From NCBI GenBank assembly GCA_937776645.1, contig CALMRI010000014.1:1-64000 (forward strand): 64,000 nt of DNA, given 5' to 3'. The translations under genes and the position numbers were made by a program. The notes under the pieces were generated by a model. The model made no database searches. It was not told the origin of the DNA and worked only from the letters and a program-made list of their open reading frames with translations. Origin of the DNA: an uncultured Alphaproteobacteria bacterium (lineage in GTDB: Bacteria; Pseudomonadota; Alphaproteobacteria; Thalassobaculales; Thalassobaculaceae). Shown piece after piece: positions 3-31,514 of the stretch (its first letter is position 1; the number at the start of each line of letters is the position of its first letter).

Positions 3-1157
3 GAGGAGAAAGACGCCAAGAATTTTATCCCCGAGGCGCTTGGTATCGCCTTGTTCCTCATGGCGATCATCCTGGTCACCCAATTCAATAGTTTCTTTAG
101 CGTTTTGGTGATTTTGTGGGCGATAGCCCTGTCGACAGTCGGCATGTATCTGGGGTTGCTGATCATGGATTTGCCGTTCGGAATCATCATGAGCAGTGTT
201 GGGATTCTCGCACTCGCCGGAATCGTGGTGAACCAAAATACTGTGCTGATCAGCACCCATGACCGCCTCAAGGTTAGTGGAATGTCCGGGCGGGACGCGC
301 TTTTGCTGACTGCGGCGCATCGGTTGCGACCGATATTGCTCACCACCGCGACGACCATTGCGGCGCTGCTCCCGATGGTTCTCCAGGTTGATATCGATAT
401 CCTGGACCGGACCGTCCAACACGGTAGCCCGACGTCGCAGCTTTGGGTGCAGCTTGCCACGGTGGTTGTTTTCGGCCTAGCCGTCTCGACCCTGATGACT
501 TTGGTTGTTACGCCCGCCCTCTTGATGCTGCGCGTTCGCTTCGATGCCAATCGAGAGACGCGGCGAATTTGGATGCGTCAGGCCTTTCGCCGGCTTAAGG
601 CGCGCGGCCCGATCGAGACCTTCATCACGGTTTTGGCGGTCGGGGTCGCCTGGGTGCTGATCCTGGAAATGATTATCGTGCGGGTCTTCGACATCGTCAC
701 CAAGCAGTTCTCCAATCCGCCTTCAGTTTGGTTCCAGGCCGTGGAGTGGTCGGCGTTCTGGACCTTCATTATTTTGACAGCCGCCTTTGCCTATTTTAGG
801 GACGCCCATGTCCGAGTTGATCTCATTCGCGAGCGATTGCCGGCCAAGGCACAAGCGGTCATCGAAATCGCCGGTTTTTTCGTCCTCCTGGCGCCGATTT
901 GCCTGATTGTTATGTGGTTTGGCGTCGACTATGTGGGGCGATCCTATGTCGACGAGGAACCTTCCGGTGCGTTGTTGGGCTCGCCGACTGGGTTCCTTTT
1001 CAAGGCCATGCTGCCGATCGGCTTTTTGCTGTTGCTGCTCGCCGGCGCCACGGTGACTTTGCGTAACCTGCGTCTGTTGAAAGGCGTCCACCGCAAGGTG
1101 GCGCCGGAGCGTGATGGTCGACGCGCGCCGGCATCGCAAAAGGGTATCGTACCGTAA
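3..1157 (+). CDS. RND efflux transporter C-terminus fused in frame to a TRAP transporter small permease (DctQ) domain; 5' truncated by window edge
   Basis: Frame is open from nt 3 (EEKDAKNFIPEALGIALFLMAIILVTQFNSF...). It has RND-type GIVVNQNTVLI / RLRPILLTTATTIAALLPMVL / TLVVTPALLML motifs, then without a stop a DctQ-like 4-TM segment (ETFITVLAVGVAWVLILEMIIVRVFDI...VEWSAFWTFIILTAAFAYFRDAHVRVDLIRERLP). Followed immediately by dctM. Confidence 0.8.
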   Translation, partial: EEKDAKNFIPEALGIALFLMAIILVTQFNSFFSVLVILWAIALSTVGMYLGLLIMDLPFGIIMSSVGILALAGIVVNQNTVLISTHDRLKVSGMSGRDALLLTAAHRLRPILLTTATTIAALLPMVLQVDIDILDRTVQHGSPTSQLWVQLATVVVFGLAVSTLMTLVVTPALLMLRVRFDANRETRRIWMRQAFRRLKARGPIETFITVLAVGVAWVLILEMIIVRVFDIVTKQFSNPPSVWFQAVEWSAFWTFIILTAAFAYFRDAHVRVDLIRERLPAKAQAVIEIAGFFVLLAPICLIVMWFGVDYVGRSYVDEEPSGALLGSPTGFLFKAMLPIGFLLLLLAGATVTLRNLRLLKGVHRKVAPERDGRRAPASQKGIVP

Positions 1158-2524
1158 TGGAGCTTGTGGATTATATCCCGGCGATGATGGTCGCCACCCT
1201 CGCGGTGATGCTTTTCACCGGCTATCCGGTGGCTTTTGTCCTGGCCGGGGTTGGGGTCCTGTTCGCCGGCCTTGGTGTGTTGATTGGCGAGTTTCCGATG
1301 GTTGCGTTCTTCAACATCCCGGCGCGTCTTTGGGGAAGCATCAATGGCAGTATGATTTTTCCAACCGTGCCGATGTTGATCTTCATGGGTGTGGCGTTGG
1401 AGAAAAGTGGCGTCGCCCAGGAAATGCTGCTGGGTCTGCAAGGGATGGTTCGGCGGTTGCCAGGCAGCATGGCGGTTGCCATGACGGTGCTGGGAGTTTT
1501 GTTGGCGCCGTCGGCCGGCCTGGTCGGGGCATCGGTCGCGACCCTGGCGCTGATCGGGCTGCCGACCATGTTGGCGCAGGGCTATCGGCGATCTTACTCG
1601 GTGGGGTCGGTCGCGGCGGCGGGAACACTGGGGATCATTCTCCCTCCCGGCATCATGCTTTTTTTCCTGTCTGATCTGATGCGAATCCCCATGGGGCCGA
1701 TCTTCGTCTCGACCCTTGTGCCAGGGCTGCTGCTGGCGCTGCTTTTCATCGTTTATTATATCGCACGAGCCATTGTCGATCCGGCGACAGCGCCTCGGCA
1801 GCCCAGGGACCCCAAGGTTCGCTATCGTGATATTCTTCTGTCCGCCGCGCGGGGGTTGACGCTGCCGGTGCTGCTGATTGCCGCCGTGCTCGGCTCGATC
1901 ATTGGGGGTATCGCGACCCCGGTGCAATCGGCCGCCGTCGGGGCGGCGGGGGGGCTGGTGATCATGCATTTGCGCGGCCGCACCACACGTAAATATCTGC
2001 ACGAGGTGATCGTCACCACCGCGACCACCTGCTCCATGGTGTTTTTGATCATCTTGGCGGCCTCGGTTTTCTCCTACCCTTTCAACTATTTCGAAGGTGG
2101 TGACCAGATCCGGGACTTTCTGCTTGGTCTGGCATTGGGCGATTGGGGAATGCTTCTGACCGTCCTCGGTATCATTTTTATTCTCGGGTTTTTCATCGAC
2201 TGGATCGAGATCACGGTAATCGTGCTGCCATTGTTGCTGCCGATCCTACTTGGCCTTGATTTCACGGATCATGTGGGGGGCGCGAAGAACCTGGTGCCAA
2301 TATGGCTGGCGGTGCAAATCGCCCTGGTCCTACAGAGTTCGTTCATGACTCCGCCCTTCGGATTTTCGCTGTTTTTCGCCAAGGGCGCCGCCCCGCCCGA
2401 AGTCACGCTGGCCGACACCTACCGTGGTGTGGTGCCCCTCGTGATGGTGCAAGCGATGGTCGTCGGATTGGTGCTGGCTTTTCCGGGACTCGCGGTCTGG
2501 CTGCCGTCGTTGGTCATGAAGTGA
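1157..2524 (+). CDS. dctM: TRAP transporter large permease, DctM family
   Basis: 455 aa multi-TM protein with DctM-type segments (GTLGIILPPGIMLFFLSDLMRIPMGPIF; IEITVIVLPLLLPILLGLDF; LQSSFMTPPFGFSLFFAKG). Start overlaps the upstream ORF end. Confidence 0.9.
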   Translation: MELVDYIPAMMVATLAVMLFTGYPVAFVLAGVGVLFAGLGVLIGEFPMVAFFNIPARLWGSINGSMIFPTVPMLIFMGVALEKSGVAQEMLLGLQGMVRRLPGSMAVAMTVLGVLLAPSAGLVGASVATLALIGLPTMLAQGYRRSYSVGSVAAAGTLGIILPPGIMLFFLSDLMRIPMGPIFVSTLVPGLLLALLFIVYYIARAIVDPATAPRQPRDPKVRYRDILLSAARGLTLPVLLIAAVLGSIIGGIATPVQSAAVGAAGGLVIMHLRGRTTRKYLHEVIVTTATTCSMVFLIILAASVFSYPFNYFEGGDQIRDFLLGLALGDWGMLLTVLGIIFILGFFIDWIEITVIVLPLLLPILLGLDFTDHVGGAKNLVPIWLAVQIALVLQSSFMTPPFGFSLFFAKGAAPPEVTLADTYRGVVPLVMVQAMVVGLVLAFPGLAVWLPSLVMK

Positions 2525-2536
2525 CCGGTGCGGCGT

Positions 2537-3313
2537 TTATTCCGCAGCTTTTGCAAAGCGCTCCAATTCCTGCACCAGGATCGGTACACCCTCGGTGGTC
2601 GAGTGGATGCCGCAGACCGAGACCAGGGCAATCACTTCCATGATCTCCTCCTTGGTTGCCCCATAGCCAAGCGCATTGCGAATATGAATCCGGGTGCCGG
2701 CGAGGAACAGATGCGTGGTCGAGATGTCGATGGCGATATAGATAAATTCCTTGATCTTCGGCGCCAACACGCCGGTTTTCCAAGGCACTGATGACAAGTC
2801 GAGATAGGCCTTGAAGAAGTCCGGCGAGAGTTTCAGCAGCGATTCCCAGATCGGCATCCAATAGCCGCGATTGTCGATGAATTCCTGCTTGTAGGCCAAG
2901 GTGCTCTCGTCGAGTTCAAGGGCCTCCAGGTCTCCGGTCATATCCGCCTTGCCGAGCTCGTCGATAAGGATTGGCAAACCTTCGGTCATCGAATGGATGC
3001 CCAACACGCTGACGATTTGTAGGACCTCCATCAACTCTTCCTTGGTCGCGCCATGCTTGAGCGCGTTGGCCATATGGATACGGGTGCCCGACAGGTAGAG
3101 ATGCGTGGTCGCGATATCCATCGCGACATAAATCATCTCCTTAACCTTGGGCTCCAACGGGCCGGTTTTCCAGGGCACCGAGGAAAAATTGCAATAGGCC
3201 TCGAAGAAATCCGGGCTCATCTCCAGAACTTGTTGCCAGAACGGAAACCAATAGCCACGGTTTTCGATAAACTCGGCCTTGAGGCTTTTTTGATGTTCGG
3301 TCAGGTCGATCAT
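2537..3313 (-). CDS. Carboxymuconolactone decarboxylase (CMD/AhpD-like) family protein with two tandem CMD domains
   Basis: Two homologous repeats of about 106 aa (FIENRGYWFPFWQQ...HGATKEELMEVLQIVSVLGIHSMTEGLPIL / FIDNRGYWMPIWES...YGATKEEIMEVIALVSVCGIHSTTEGVPIL). Start at ATG 3313. Confidence 0.8.
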   Translation of the reverse strand: MIDLTEHQKSLKAEFIENRGYWFPFWQQVLEMSPDFFEAYCNFSSVPWKTGPLEPKVKEMIYVAMDIATTHLYLSGTRIHMANALKHGATKEELMEVLQIVSVLGIHSMTEGLPILIDELGKADMTGDLEALELDESTLAYKQEFIDNRGYWMPIWESLLKLSPDFFKAYLDLSSVPWKTGVLAPKIKEFIYIAIDISTTHLFLAGTRIHIRNALGYGATKEEIMEVIALVSVCGIHSTTEGVPILVQELERFAKAAE

Positions 3314-3640
3314 TTCAAGGGACTCCCGTGCTGCTGGCACCATCGGGAGAATTCAGGCAGAGCGCGGCGTTTATATCAAGCGCGGTCGGCCAAACGCCTT
3401 GTCCATTGCGTCTGTGATGGCGGCGGCGAGCGCCAAGCTTACCCGAGAGGAAGCTCCGGCAACCCCTACTTGGCCGGCAGGTATCACGCCGTCTTCACGG
3501 TGATCCGTTTTGGTGGTGATGTAGCCGCCGCCAGTTTGGCGATCGTGAGCGAGGCATCCTTTTGGTTCGCGGCTACATTGTCTGTATCGGCGTCGGTTGG
3601 CAGCCAGAAGGAGCGGCGAAACTTTCCGCAACCGGCGGCG

Positions 3641-13140: not shown

Positions 13141-16100
13141 TCATGGCAGGGTCTTGTCTTTTATGCTGGAGGCGTTTGATGTTGCCGCATCCGGAATCGA
13201 GCTGGCTAGGGTCAGCTCTTCCTCAAGCGTCCCGGCGGCGGTCGCCCGGGGGGCTGAAAAACGGGCGAGGCCGAGATAGGCGACTGGGGTCAGGTACAGC
13301 GTAAAGACGGCGGCGATGCCGAGGCCGCCGAACACTACCCAGCCGATCGCCGAGCGCGCCTCGGCGCCGGGGCCACTGCTTAGGATCAGCGGCAACCCGC
13401 CGAGGATGGTCGAGATCATGGTCATCGCGATTGGTCGCAGCCGCACGGTTGCGGAACGCTCTATCGCCTCGCGCACGGATAAGCCCCGGTCGCGCAGTTG
13501 ATCGGCGAACTCGACGACCAGGATACCGTTCTTGGCCATCAGCCCGATCATCATGACAAGGCCTATCTGCGAGTAGATGTTCAAGGTGGTTCCGGTCAGC
13601 AGTAATGCATAGATCGCCGCCGCGATCCCGAATGGCACGGTGACGACGATAATGGCGGCGCTGGTTAGGCTTTCGAATTGGGCTGCCAGCACCAAAAACA
13701 CCACAAGGACGGCGATACCGTAAGTAATCGCAACGTCCCGCTCGGCCTCCTCCAGGGCCTCGGCTTCGCCCAGCAGGATCATCTCCACGTCCTCCGGTAA
13801 GACCTCTCGGGCAAGCACCTGAACCTCGGTAATCGCTGCTTTCAGGTCGTAGCCGTCGCCGATATCGGCATCAAGCTCAACGGCGCGGCGTTGGACATGC
13901 CGGTCAAGCTCCGCCGCGACGCCTTCTTCGTGCAGCGAGACCAGACTAGACAACGGCACCAGATCACCGGCGCGGGTGCGGACATACAAATTGACCAAAT
14001 CGGTCGGATCACGGATCGCGCCGCCCTTGGCTTCCAGCATGATAGGTATAGCCTCGTCCTTGATGTTGAGATCGCCCAGCTCATCGCCGTCGATCATCAC
14101 CCGTAAGGTCGAGGCTAGATCCTCAAGCGGTATCCCCAGATCCGAGGCGCGGCGCCGGTCGATCTTGACCGAAAGCTGCGGCTGCGTCGGTTGGTAGGAA
14201 ACCCGAACATCGGAAAGTTTTGGCAATCGGTCCTCAATCGCCTCGGCAAGTTTGATCGCCACGTCGTAGAGATGCAGATAGTCGTTGCCGATCAGCGCTA
14301 CTTCCAGACCGCCCGCCGTGCTGCGCAGCCGCAGACTGTTGCGGCTGAATACTCGGACGCGCATTCCCGGCACTTGGGCCATCTTGCTCCTTAGCTCGCG
14401 GATGATCGCCTGCTGGGAACGCTCCCGCTGGTCCCATGGCGCCAGCGTCGTGTAGATGAACACACGGTTTAAATCGTAGCGGCCGACGAAGTTGAACAAC
14501 GTGGTGACCTCGCCGCTCTCGACATAGGGCTGCAGGATCGCCTCGATCTGGTCCGCTTGGCGGTCGCTATAGGCCAGACCGACGCCGTCGGGACCGGTGC
14601 CGAAGACGGTGAATTTTCCCCGGTCCTCCGACGGCACTAGCTCCTGCTTCAGGGTGCCGAAAACCAGCCAGGCTCCGGCGGCTAGGACAATCGCGCCGGC
14701 GCAAATGATCAATGGCGCGGCCAGGGCCCAGCGCAGGGTGACGGCATAAAGCGCGGCAAGCCGGTTGCCAGCCCAGACTATTCCCGCCCGGATGCCAGGG
14801 CTGGGGGCCTTCGGTTCGCCCAATCGGGCAGCCAAGGCCGGCACTAGGGTGAGGGCGACGAAGGATGAGATCGCCACCGATACCGCCAACACAAAGCCGA
14901 ATTCACGGAACAATCGGCCGGCGGTGCTGGGCAGGAAGGAGATTGGCACGAAGACCGATATCAAGGTTAGGGTAGTCGCAATCACCGCGAAAAACACTTG
15001 CCGGGAGCCGAGAACCGCCGCTGCCTTGGCCCGTAGTCCCTGGGCGCGGCGTCGCTGAATATTCTCCAGAACGACGATTGAATCGTCGACGATCATGCCG
15101 GTCGCCAAGACAAGCGCCAGCAAGGTCAGAATGTTGATCGAAAACCCCAGCAGCCAGATCGCGGCCACCGACCCGATCAACGCCACCGGGATGGCGACGC
15201 AAGGGATCAGGGTGGCGCTGGGCGAGCCGAGGAAAACCCAGAGCGTGGCGATCACGATGGTCACCGCCAGGGCGAGGCTGATCAGCACCTCGCGGATCGA
15301 GCCTCGAATGAACAAAGCTTCATCGGATATCGTCAGGATCTCGATCCGCTCGAAACGCGCGTTCAGGCGCTCGACAGCCTGTTTCACCCCATCCGAAATC
15401 TTGATCGTGTTCGACTGTGCTTGACGGATGATGCTGATGCCGATGACCGGCTCTCCGTTTACTCGGACATAGGATTCGGCGTCCTCCGGACCAAAGAACA
15501 CATCGGCCACGTCGCCAATGCGGACTGGCTCGCGGATGACGATGGTCTCAACCTCGCGCGCGGTTTCCACAGTGGCGTCGGCCCGCACCAGCAACTCCTG
15601 ATCGCGGGATACGAAGCTGCCGGTCGGGATGTCGAAGGGGGCAGTGTTGAGCACCTCTATGACATCGCCGACGGTGAGCTGGTAGGAACTGAGCCGTAGC
15701 GGGTCGATAACCACGCGCAAGAGCCGCCGGCGGTCGCCGAACAAAGTGGCGTCAGCGACGCCATCGACCGAGACTAGGGCAGGGATAATATCCTTCTCGA
15801 CAATCCGGGTCAGCTCATCCTCGTCGAGGCCACGCCCCTGAACGGCGAGCTGCATGATCGGGCTGGAATCTACGTCGGCCTTGACCACGGTTAATTGCTC
15901 GACCTCGGCTGGGAGCCGTTGCTCGACCCGACTGACCGCCTCGCGAACATCGGCCGCCGCGATGTCCAGACTCGTGCTGGGCGAGAACTCGGCCCGCATG
16001 CGGAAATTATTCTCCTCGCTAGAGGAGCGAATTTCTTTCACCCCATTAACCCGGGCAACGGCCCCTTCGACCAGACTGGTTACCGCGGCGTCCATGGTTT

Positions 16101-16284
16101 CTGGCGAGGCGCCCTGGTAGATTCCGCGCACGGTGACAATCGGTCGGTCGATGTTCGGGAGTTCCCGCACCTCGACTGCGGCCAACGCGGCAAGCCCGGC
16201 CAGGGCGATCAGCAAGCTCAGCACCAGCACCAGCAGCGGCCGGCGGACGCTGAGTGATGCCAGATCGTTCCGTTGCTCGCTCAT
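13141..16284 (-). CDS. Efflux RND transporter permease subunit (AcrB/MexF type)
   Basis: 1047 aa full-length RND: MSEQRNDLASLSVRRPLLVLVLSLLIALAGLAAL, GMIVDDSIVVLENIQRR, GLMAKNGILVVEFADQLRDRG, RLRPIAMTMISTILGGLPL. Confidence 0.95.
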   Translation of the reverse strand: MSEQRNDLASLSVRRPLLVLVLSLLIALAGLAALAAVEVRELPNIDRPIVTVRGIYQGASPETMDAAVTSLVEGAVARVNGVKEIRSSSEENNFRMRAEFSPSTSLDIAAADVREAVSRVEQRLPAEVEQLTVVKADVDSSPIMQLAVQGRGLDEDELTRIVEKDIIPALVSVDGVADATLFGDRRRLLRVVIDPLRLSSYQLTVGDVIEVLNTAPFDIPTGSFVSRDQELLVRADATVETAREVETIVIREPVRIGDVADVFFGPEDAESYVRVNGEPVIGISIIRQAQSNTIKISDGVKQAVERLNARFERIEILTISDEALFIRGSIREVLISLALAVTIVIATLWVFLGSPSATLIPCVAIPVALIGSVAAIWLLGFSINILTLLALVLATGMIVDDSIVVLENIQRRRAQGLRAKAAAVLGSRQVFFAVIATTLTLISVFVPISFLPSTAGRLFREFGFVLAVSVAISSFVALTLVPALAARLGEPKAPSPGIRAGIVWAGNRLAALYAVTLRWALAAPLIICAGAIVLAAGAWLVFGTLKQELVPSEDRGKFTVFGTGPDGVGLAYSDRQADQIEAILQPYVESGEVTTLFNFVGRYDLNRVFIYTTLAPWDQRERSQQAIIRELRSKMAQVPGMRVRVFSRNSLRLRSTAGGLEVALIGNDYLHLYDVAIKLAEAIEDRLPKLSDVRVSYQPTQPQLSVKIDRRRASDLGIPLEDLASTLRVMIDGDELGDLNIKDEAIPIMLEAKGGAIRDPTDLVNLYVRTRAGDLVPLSSLVSLHEEGVAAELDRHVQRRAVELDADIGDGYDLKAAITEVQVLAREVLPEDVEMILLGEAEALEEAERDVAITYGIAVLVVFLVLAAQFESLTSAAIIVVTVPFGIAAAIYALLLTGTTLNIYSQIGLVMMIGLMAKNGILVVEFADQLRDRGLSVREAIERSATVRLRPIAMTMISTILGGLPLILSSGPGAEARSAIGWVVFGGLGIAAVFTLYLTPVAYLGLARFSAPRATAAGTLEEELTLASSIPDAATSNASSIKDKTLP

Positions 16285-17381
16285 GATCCGGTCTTTGCCT
16301 TTACTTTGGCGCCAAGCACGGTTTTGGCGTAAGAAACCTCCCGGCCGTCGCGCATTCGGTGGAAACCCTCGACGACCACCAGATCGCCGGGCAGAATTGT
16401 GGCATCAACCAGAATGTCGGCCTCCTGACGCTGCACGATCGTCGCCTCTACATGACGCGCCCTGCCGTCGCGGATCAGCCAAAGGAAAGAGCCGTCGCCG
16501 CCCCATTGCACGGCAATTTCCGGGACCATTGGATAGACTTGGCCAATGACGTCAGAGGCTACTCGAAAACTCATGCCGGGTCGCAGCGTATCGTTTGGAT
16601 TGGCAATCCGGGCGCGCACCAGAAAAGTTCGAGTCTGCTCGTTGATCCGGCTGCCGATATCAAAGACCGACCCCTCGGTGACAATGGTGCGATCCGACCA
16701 GGGGGTTACCCGAACCTTGTCGCCTTTGGCGATGCGGCCGAGCAGCACCTCGGGCACCTCAAAGCGCACCAGCAGGGCCTCGCGCTGGTCAAGCGAGGCG
16801 ATTGCACTGTCCGTATCCACCCGGTCCCCGACATCAAGCTCGGCCAGCCCGATGCGCCCGCTAAACGGGGCCACCACGTGTCGGTCGGCGAGGATCACCT
16901 CGGCCCGCTTCAATTCGATACGGGCGGCTTCCAGGGCGCTTTGCGCGTCGTCGTGGGTGGAGTTTGCGACCGCGCCACTGGATTTCAGCCGGCGCAACCT
17001 CTCAAAGGTCCGGCGGTTCTCATCGAGTCTGATCCGGGCCAGATCGACAGCAAGTTGTTCGGCCTCGCTATCGAGTTCCAGAAGGACAGTGCCGCCGGTG
17101 ACTTGCTGGTCGGCGGTGAAATTGACCCGGATGATCTCGCCCGCTGCTGCCGAATGCAGTGTCGCCGAGCGGAGCGCGCGGGCGGTGCCGACGACCCGAA
17201 CGCGAATTGTTTCATGGGCGCTGGCGACCTCTTGCACGACCACGATCGCCGGTTGCTTCTTGCCGTCACGCTTGCCGACGCCAACCTCGGGGGGGGGCAG
17301 GACCGGTCCGAGATAAGTCCAGGCTCCAGCGGCGACGGCGGCGATCAGCCCCATGATTAGTAGCTGTCGGAGCAAGGTCAT
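16281..17381 (-). CDS. Efflux RND transporter periplasmic adaptor subunit (MFP/HlyD family)
   Basis: Start MTLLRQLLIMG with N-terminal TM; GTARALRSATLHSAAAGEIIRVNFTADQQVTGGTVLLELDS, APFSGRIGLAELDVGDRVD, GMSFRVAS. ATGA overlap with the downstream RND gene. Confidence 0.92.
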   Translation of the reverse strand: MTLLRQLLIMGLIAAVAAGAWTYLGPVLPPPEVGVGKRDGKKQPAIVVVQEVASAHETIRVRVVGTARALRSATLHSAAAGEIIRVNFTADQQVTGGTVLLELDSEAEQLAVDLARIRLDENRRTFERLRRLKSSGAVANSTHDDAQSALEAARIELKRAEVILADRHVVAPFSGRIGLAELDVGDRVDTDSAIASLDQREALLVRFEVPEVLLGRIAKGDKVRVTPWSDRTIVTEGSVFDIGSRINEQTRTFLVRARIANPNDTLRPGMSFRVASDVIGQVYPMVPEIAVQWGGDGSFLWLIRDGRARHVEATIVQRQEADILVDATILPGDLVVVEGFHRMRDGREVSYAKTVLGAKVKAKTGS

Positions 17382-17551
17382 CTGAGGGCACCGTTCCGTC
17401 GGTCGTTCGCTAGAAATTTGGCGGTCATTCGGGTAGATGATAGTGCCGAATGCCGGGCTATCCAACGGTGATGCACCCGTCTCGGGTCTTGCCGCAGGAT
17501 AGGGCGGTGCGGAAGATAGGGGTTCCTGACGCTTTCGCGGAGTTGAGCGGC

Positions 17552-18736
17552 ATGAACACCCTGGCACCACGCATCAGCACGGCCCCGGATTTGGCCGCTA
17601 TCGACGGCTTGACGTCGTTCGAGCGCGCCTTGCGTCAGCCCCTGATGGTTGGCCTGTTCCTGCCGCACCAGCAGGGCGCCTGGTCGCCGTCCAAAGCGCC
17701 GCGCGGAACCGACTGGAGTTTCGCCTATAACGCGGAATGCGCGATCCAGGCCGAAGAGATGGGCTTTGATCTGGTCTTCGCGTTGGCTCAATGGCTGGGC
17801 AAGGGCGGCTACGGCGGCGATATAAAATTTCGCGAGAACACGTTGGATCCGTTCATCGCCTCGGCCGGTCTGGCGCCACTCACCCGCAACATATTGCTGA
17901 TCTCTACCGTGCATATCCTCTACGGTTGGCACCCCTTGCATATTGCCAAATATGGCGCGGTGATCGACCATATCGCTCGTGGGCGCTGGGGCATCAACGT
18001 GGTCACTGGCTATAAGGACAAGGAGCCACGGATGTTCGGCTTGCCGAAAATTGAGCGGGAAGAACGCTATGCCAGGGCGGCGGAGTTCACCGAGCTTTTG
18101 AAGCAATTGTGGACCAGCGACGAAGATCTGGATTTCGAAGGCCGGTGGTGGTCGACCGAGAAAGCCTTTGTCGCGCCGAAGCCAGTGAACGGCCTACCAG
18201 TGCTGGTCAATGCCGCATCCTCGGGCGCCGGACTTGACTACGCGACCAGCCATTCGGATCTGATCTTTTCGACATCGCCGACCGGCGCTGACCCTGAAAA
18301 AGCTTGTGAATCACTGCCGGATCATATCGCCCGGATTAAGCAAAGCGCCCAGGCCAAGGGGCGCGATATTCGAGTGATGATCAATCCGCATGTGATCTGC
18401 CGACCGACGGACAAAGAAGCCTGGGAATGGCGCGACCGCATCCTGGCTGAGCGCGATAAGCAGGCGGTGGGTAATTTCGTCGCGGACTTCATGGGCGGTG
18501 ACCAGTCTTCTTGGAAGGGCCATAGCCTGGAAAATTGGGCGATCGGCGGCAATGTTCACCTCGTTGGTTCGCCGCAACGGATCGTCGACTGGATGGTGCG
18601 GTTGAAAGCAGCCGGCGTTGACGGGGTGCAGATCAATTTCTACGATTTTCTACCGGACCTTGCTTATTTTCGTGAGGCGGTGTGGCCGCTCATGCATGCG
18701 GCGGGGTTGCGGGCGTGGCGCCAAAAGGCCAAATGA
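17552..18736 (+). CDS. LLM-class flavin-dependent monooxygenase (RutA/SfnG-like)
   Basis: PLMVGLFLPHQQGAWSPSKAPRGTDWSFAYNAECAIQAEEMGFDLVFALAQWLGKGGYGGDIKFRENTLDPF, IDHIARGRWGINVVTGY, FYDFLPDLAYFREAVWPLM. Confidence 0.85.
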   Translation: MNTLAPRISTAPDLAAIDGLTSFERALRQPLMVGLFLPHQQGAWSPSKAPRGTDWSFAYNAECAIQAEEMGFDLVFALAQWLGKGGYGGDIKFRENTLDPFIASAGLAPLTRNILLISTVHILYGWHPLHIAKYGAVIDHIARGRWGINVVTGYKDKEPRMFGLPKIEREERYARAAEFTELLKQLWTSDEDLDFEGRWWSTEKAFVAPKPVNGLPVLVNAASSGAGLDYATSHSDLIFSTSPTGADPEKACESLPDHIARIKQSAQAKGRDIRVMINPHVICRPTDKEAWEWRDRILAERDKQAVGNFVADFMGGDQSSWKGHSLENWAIGGNVHLVGSPQRIVDWMVRLKAAGVDGVQINFYDFLPDLAYFREAVWPLMHAAGLRAWRQKAK

Positions 18737-30073: not shown

Positions 30074-30437
30074 GGGCGGTCCCTCGCTTGGCTATGCATC
30101 TGTCGATTATATCACGCCCTCGGGGCGGCGCAACGAGAGGTGAAACGGAACAAAATTCCAAAGCATTGCGCGGTTTTTCAAGACGATTTTCGTCGATTTC
30201 GTGTGGCGATTATCCCGAATCGCACCACCGATATTGGCCAGGACAGCAATATTGGTCCAAGGCGGACGCCAAGGTCATTAAGGCGGAGGGGACTTAGTCT
30301 TAAATCCTACCGCTGAGCGACCTTAAAGTCCGAGTCAAACTAGAATTGTGTATTGTGTGGAGATTCGCTAATGTTAAGTTAGACACGCCTGCGTGCAGCG
30401 GTCGTCGTTGTGCGGACGCGTGGATGGGAGGACGATA

Positions 30438-31514
30438 ATGAAGTCAGTAACAGCTTTCAAAACATTGGCCATTGGCACAGTCGTTGGCGCAGTGGCGTTT
30501 GCCGCTGCCGGCGATGCGATTGCGGCGAAAAAAGTTAAATGGAAGATGCAGAGCGCTTGGGGCACCCAGGTGCCTAACGCCGGTGAGTCCGGGGTGCGTT
30601 TTGTTAACAGTGTCAACACGATGTCCGCTGGTAAGTTCACCATCAAATTTTTCGATCCAGGCGCGTTGGTTCCGGCTCTCGAGACGTTTGACGCGGCTTC
30701 TAAGGGCTCGATCGAGTCGGCTTGGACCACGCCTGGCTACCATGCCGGTCGGTATCCGGGTCTGTCGTTCATGACGACGGTGCCTTTCGGCCCAGCGATT
30801 TCCGAGTTTATGGCCTGGAAGTGGTTTGGCGGCGGAAACGCGATCCGGGATCGGGTCTATGCCAAGCATGACCTTTATGCGGTCGACGCCTTCTCGCATG
30901 GTGCCGAGACCTCGGGTTGGTTCAAAGAGCCAATTACCGATCTTAAGCAGCTCAAAGGCATGAAGATGCGTTTCTTCGGCCTGGGCGCCAAGGTCATGTC
31001 GAAGATCGGCGTGTCCACTCAGCTGCTCGCCGGTGCCGACATTTATCCGGCCCTGGAGCGTGGTGTGATCGACGCGACTGAGTATTCGATGCCCACTAAC
31101 GACATCAAATACGGCTTCTATCAGATTGCCAAGAACAACTACTTCCCAGGTTGGCATCAGCAGTCTTCGGTGTCGGAATTCCTGATGAACAAGACTAAGT
31201 TCGAGGGGCTTGACGCGGCTTATCAAGAGATGATCCGCAGCGCGACCTACACGCAGGTCATTTATACCCACGCTAAGGCTGACTCAGAGCAGTTTGGGGC
31301 GATGCAGACCATGCAGGATAAGCATGGCGTGAAGATCCATCGCTGGAAAGACTCTCAGCTGGCCGTGTTTGAGAAGGCTTGGCTTGAGGTCGTTGCCGAG
31401 AATTCGGCCACCGACCCTCTGTTCAAGGAATTCGCGGACAGCTACTACGCTTTCCGTGCCGGGTTCAAGATCTGGGGTGATGCCCAGTCTATGAAGCTGA
31501 CCTACCTGGACTGA
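30438..31514 (+). CDS. TRAP transporter substrate-binding protein (DctP/TakP-like)
   Basis: Signal peptide MKSVTAFKTLAIGTVVGAVAFAAAGDAIA; WKMQSAWGTQVPNAGE, LKGMKMRFFGLGAKVMSKIGVSTQLLAGADIYPALERGVIDATEYSMPTND. Confidence 0.93.
   Translation: MKSVTAFKTLAIGTVVGAVAFAAAGDAIAAKKVKWKMQSAWGTQVPNAGESGVRFVNSVNTMSAGKFTIKFFDPGALVPALETFDAASKGSIESAWTTPGYHAGRYPGLSFMTTVPFGPAISEFMAWKWFGGGNAIRDRVYAKHDLYAVDAFSHGAETSGWFKEPITDLKQLKGMKMRFFGLGAKVMSKIGVSTQLLAGADIYPALERGVIDATEYSMPTNDIKYGFYQIAKNNYFPGWHQQSSVSEFLMNKTKFEGLDAAYQEMIRSATYTQVIYTHAKADSEQFGAMQTMQDKHGVKIHRWKDSQLAVFEKAWLEVVAENSATDPLFKEFADSYYAFRAGFKIWGDAQSMKLTYLD

Follow-up and report, generated by a model that had tools for sequence, protein, structure and literature searches.

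Comparison of sequences between related genomes leads us to conclude that an RND-family permease and DctQ, the small permease of a TRAP transporter, are encoded as a single polypeptide in an uncultured alphaproteobacterial genus, and that this fusion is real and fixed in at least two of its species. The two families are unrelated, and their transport runs in opposite directions, RND pumps exporting solutes and TRAP transporters importing them. The reading that we favour, with a probability of about one half, is that DctQ and the separately encoded large permease DctM form an importer served by a binding protein (DctP) in trans and tethered to a diverged RND protein.

The fused gene in two species and its counterparts in a third

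The window, i.e. the whole stretch of 64,000 nucleotides that was analysed, starts at base 1 of its contig (C14) in a genome that is 87% complete; the 5' end of the RND gene has thus been cut off by the assembly and is absent here. No PF00873 match completing the N-terminus was found among the other matches in the same genome. The visible part of the gene is a single open frame with no stop codon from 3 to 1154, confirming the uninterrupted RND-DctQ frame of the preliminary description, and it encodes successively the end of the RND permease, a linker and a complete DctQ. Pfam assigns residues 2-176 of the visible frame to ACR_tran (PF00873; E 2.1e-20; profile 857-1019 of 1021, only the last 163 profile positions lying in the window) and residues 223-357 to DctQ (PF04290; E 2.9e-14; profile 1-131 of 132). 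The latter domain is therefore full length, as had been claimed, and scores 53.5 bits against a Pfam cut-off of 28.3. The overlap reported between dctM and the fusion stop codon is also correct: the TAA and the ATG at 1157-1159 share one base (TAATG). The features discussed below are the following:

3-530, plus strand: C-terminal part of the RND permease (PF00873); visible residues 1-176 correspond to residues 855-1030 of the 1238-aa ortholog
531-617, plus strand: linker of about 28 residues including the conserved Met191, delimited by aligning stand-alone RND C-termini and stand-alone DctQ N-termini
573-575, plus strand: internal in-frame ATG (Met191)
618-1157, plus strand: complete DctQ, TRAP small permease, in the same frame, with the stop TAA at 1155-1157 (PF04290; best PDB fold SiaQ, 7qha_A)
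1157-2524, plus strand: dctM, TRAP large permease, overlapping the fusion stop by one base (PF06808, E 2.7e-54)
2537-3343, minus strand: carboxymuconolactone-decarboxylase (CMD)-family gene past dctM (PF02627, two tandem CMD stretches)
30393-31514, plus strand: orphan DctP-family binding protein (PF03480, E 6.5e-35)

The complete RND N-terminus, which the preliminary description had proposed to recover from upstream sequence, was obtained from the ortholog in a second species of the genus (G002). This metagenome-assembled genome encodes the whole fusion in 1238 aa on a contig (C91) which we take to be JAQBUJ010000102.1 of isolate casp150-mb.144; its Caspian Sea origin is read from the isolate name. 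ACR_tran is complete there (residues 4-1029; profile 2-1018 of 1021, E 3.9e-154) and precedes DctQ (1077-1211), and dctM then follows. The 384 residues visible in the window are 96% identical to this full-length protein, and the DctM proteins are 97% identical. The G002 fusion gene begins 13 bases past a PhoU-domain gene, the G001 ortholog of which is a Na+/phosphate cotransporter. In this third species, G001, the RND protein (71% identical over 672 residues) and DctM (90%) are encoded on separate contigs, the former stopping at about residue 672 and the latter starting 30 bases before dctM, so that the gap between them would span any junction. The CMD-family gene adjoins dctM in all three species.

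Selection and the state of the two halves

The two assemblies that contain the junction are 92.7% identical in DNA and carry it in identical form and in frame, with synonymous changes on both sides. Over the shared stretch dS is 0.27, and neither a stop nor a frameshift is found. The dN/dS ratio is 0.10 for the RND part, 0.02 for DctQ, 0.05 for DctM and 0.23 for the linker, which has few sites; judging from these ratios, both halves of the fusion are constrained by purifying selection in the two species. The internal ATG noted near nucleotide 573 does exist; it encodes residue 191 and recurs in the second species. A junction common to both species, Met191 included, and flanked by two constrained halves fits neither an assembly chimera nor a freshly lost stop codon. 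A sequencing error hiding a stop at the junction, raised beforehand as a possible objection, is rejected on these grounds, and the suggested origin of the fusion through recent loss of the RND stop codon is unlikely. Equally, an assembly error or frameshift shared by both genomes is ruled out by the same junction recurring at this dS with low dN/dS, and a decaying stop-codon read-through is unlikely, given the three ratios and the fact that no stop has arisen.

The RND half has diverged from its relatives. Of 319 positions at which 17 relatives do not vary, it retains 253, whereas each of these relatives retains 95-99% of the positions invariant in the rest. In the TM10 motif NNNIVLID, the Asp invariant in the 17 relatives is replaced by Ser in both fusion species (residue 938; window codon 252-254), while the TM4 Asp is present in the G002 fusion. 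The fusion scores 430.5 bits with the NCBIfam model RND_permease_2 (NF033617), below the cut-off of 1250, but a stand-alone relative also reaches just 473.8; the nearest solved structures by sequence are MexK (9xwg) and an RND transporter (6vej). No adaptor (MFP) gene is adjacent to the fusion in G002 or to the RND gene of G001, which adjoins a cytochrome P450 gene, and across the three genomes of the genus a single close homologue of the relatives' adaptor was found, which accompanies an ordinary paralog of the fused RND. The absence of an adaptor gene and the loss of the TM10 Asp suggest that this half may not work as an ordinary pump.

Taken further, these features would fit an RND domain that no longer pumps and has become a scaffold or periplasmic docking platform for the QM pair, possibly passing substrate instead of, or together with, DctP. 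We regard this as possible but rather doubtful: purifying selection acts on the RND part (dN/dS 0.10), the TM4 Asp has been kept, and an adaptor may be encoded in a missing portion of the assemblies, which are 81-87% complete, or be shared. Moreover, the visible part of the G001 RND protein has lost 28 of 194 invariant positions, a share similar to that of the fusion, so the divergence of the fused RND may mark an old separate lineage.

The DctQ half, in contrast, looks intact, as far as sequence and model indicate. It retains the residues invariant among its stand-alone relatives, and its sequence profile matches SiaQ (7qha, E 1e-7). An AlphaFold model of DctQ alone, of moderate confidence (pLDDT 66.2), has SiaQ 7qha_A as its best PDB fold (TM-score 0.56 by query length, E 0.0098). 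A model of the visible fusion (pLDDT 54.7, pTM 0.36) had low confidence at the junction and was set aside. The C-terminus of RND permeases such as AcrB is cytoplasmic. Both ends of SiaQ, which acts as a scaffold for the moving M subunit, are cytoplasmic as well (N-in/C-in; PMC9971032, PMC10942642). Attachment of the one to the other would hence need no extra helix and appears sterically reasonable.

No dctP adjoins the fusion, in agreement with the earlier remark that none is visible in this operon. An orphan gene is present at 30393-31514, 29 kb downstream on the same contig and without adjacent QM genes. In G002, too, the ortholog (93%) has no QM genes next to it within its short contig, and the protein of the window is 48% identical to the DctP encoded beside a related QM pair in another genome (G036). 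We consider it a candidate partner in trans of the QM pair. The suggestion in the preliminary description that RND periplasmic domains stand in for a DctP is neither favoured nor contradicted by these observations. Further DctP genes occur elsewhere in the genome of the window; one of them, a second orphan whose product is 67% identical, is located on contig C56. Contig C10 of this genome (locus L111, 4882-8958) carries a TRAP cluster in which two DctM-like genes in a row are followed by DctQ; similar tandem DctM pairs occur in several genomes of the family.

Stand-alone relatives and distribution of the fusion

The relatives carry the two halves as separate genes, which are unlinked in those examined. 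Stand-alone RND relatives, about 51% identical, end after a short tail past the last helix, and in most of them an adaptor gene lies directly upstream (RND_mfp being confirmed for one). Stand-alone DctQ relatives (33-40% identical) begin close to where Met191 lies and have dctM behind them. RND and DctQ relatives were aligned separately; a joint alignment had placed the stand-alone DctQs on the RND half. The junction is thus located where one gene would end and the next begin, as though an intervening segment had been deleted, and the ATG at 573 is a possible alternative start of DctQ or the relic of a former start codon. Contig C14 also encodes, outside the window (locus L102, 3904-8162), an ordinary RND paralog that is 51% identical to the fused one and has an adaptor of its own, and the window itself contains a conventional RND permease of 1047 aa (13141-17570, minus strand) overlapped upstream by its adaptor gene.

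Searches with the fused protein in 36 genomes of the family and order, 385 of the class and 399 of the phylum found no other RND-DctQ fusion, and in a class-wide search with the DctQ profile none of the matches listed placed DctQ in a frame of more than 702 aa. A scan of 85,462 species with peptide patterns matched the Caspian MAG and, apart from it, just one stand-alone DctQ. On plasmids, no match to the fusion extended into the DctQ part among the matches listed, and the top matches to annotated DctQ were TRAP genes of the ordinary kind. The search for further proteins combining ACR_tran and DctQ, recommended in the preliminary description, accordingly returned none beyond the genus; since these searches cover samples or patterns, rarer distant cases may escape. 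In these sequence data, the fusion is seen in one uncultured alphaproteobacterial genus and nowhere else searched, and a literature search retrieved no report of an RND-DctQ fusion. To our knowledge, this would be the first case of an exporter-family protein built onto an importer that depends on a substrate-binding protein, if the link is functional.

The restriction to one genus, the unlinked RND and QM genes of the relatives examined and the conservation of the ATG at 573, near the start of stand-alone DctQ proteins, would also be expected if a gene boundary had been lost neutrally and the halves worked independently. Internal initiation at this ATG could yield a free DctQ in addition, which would count against a tether. 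We nevertheless judge such a neutral fusion unlikely: it was in place before the two species diverged (dS 0.27), no stop having arisen since, and a Shine-Dalgarno sequence for the ATG is poorly placed (GAGAG, some 15 bases before it), although that of dctM is itself weak.

Possible working of the fusion and known systems

The tethered importer is favoured by the full fusion in an independent species, the dN/dS ratios, the matching topologies, the intact DctQ and the DctP candidates devoid of QM genes; the tethered module put forward in the preliminary description appears to be the simplest reading left. From the one-base overlap, the fusion would be cotranscribed with dctM. The DctQ part and DctM would then form an ordinary cation-coupled TRAP importer taking its substrate from a DctP encoded elsewhere, the RND part being joined covalently, on the cytoplasmic side, to the non-moving Q scaffold. 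Importer and RND protein would be produced one-to-one and remain together, an RND trimer carrying up to three QM importers. The two modules would presumably work by separate mechanisms that are not directly coupled in energetic terms, and the RND part could be either still an exporter or mainly a platform. It is quite improbable that an RND trimer with its QM importers makes up one composite transporter whose RND periplasmic domains help to deliver or exchange substrate, so that the capture of an organic acid is linked to its export within the complex. An assembly or sequencing artefact is scarcely credible: although both genomes are drafts and the window begins inside the gene, the junction and its flanking synonymous changes recur in both.

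Known systems offer partial parallels. Residues 4-1029 share the complete RND permease architecture of MexK, TriC and AcrB, from which the fusion differs in its C-terminal DctQ, its lack of an adjacent adaptor gene and the replacement by Ser of its relatives' TM10 Asp. In TRAP transporters with fused Q and M, such as SiaQM of Haemophilus influenzae (PMC10942642), Q is likewise a scaffold within a larger polypeptide, and Q and M are both present; there, however, the C-terminus of Q is fused to M, whereas here Q is joined through its N-terminus to a member of an exporter family unrelated to it, and M is a separate protein. The TAXI-GltS fusions (PMC12344293) are similarly rare and lineage-restricted and also attach a TRAP component to a secondary transporter unrelated to it, but they combine a binding protein with the importer GltS, instead of a membrane scaffold subunit with an exporter-family protein. 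If the covalent link has been selected and is functional, coordination between importer and exporter modules becomes testable in this genus; if it is only structural, the fusion would be a clean example of an RND protein repurposed as a scaffold.
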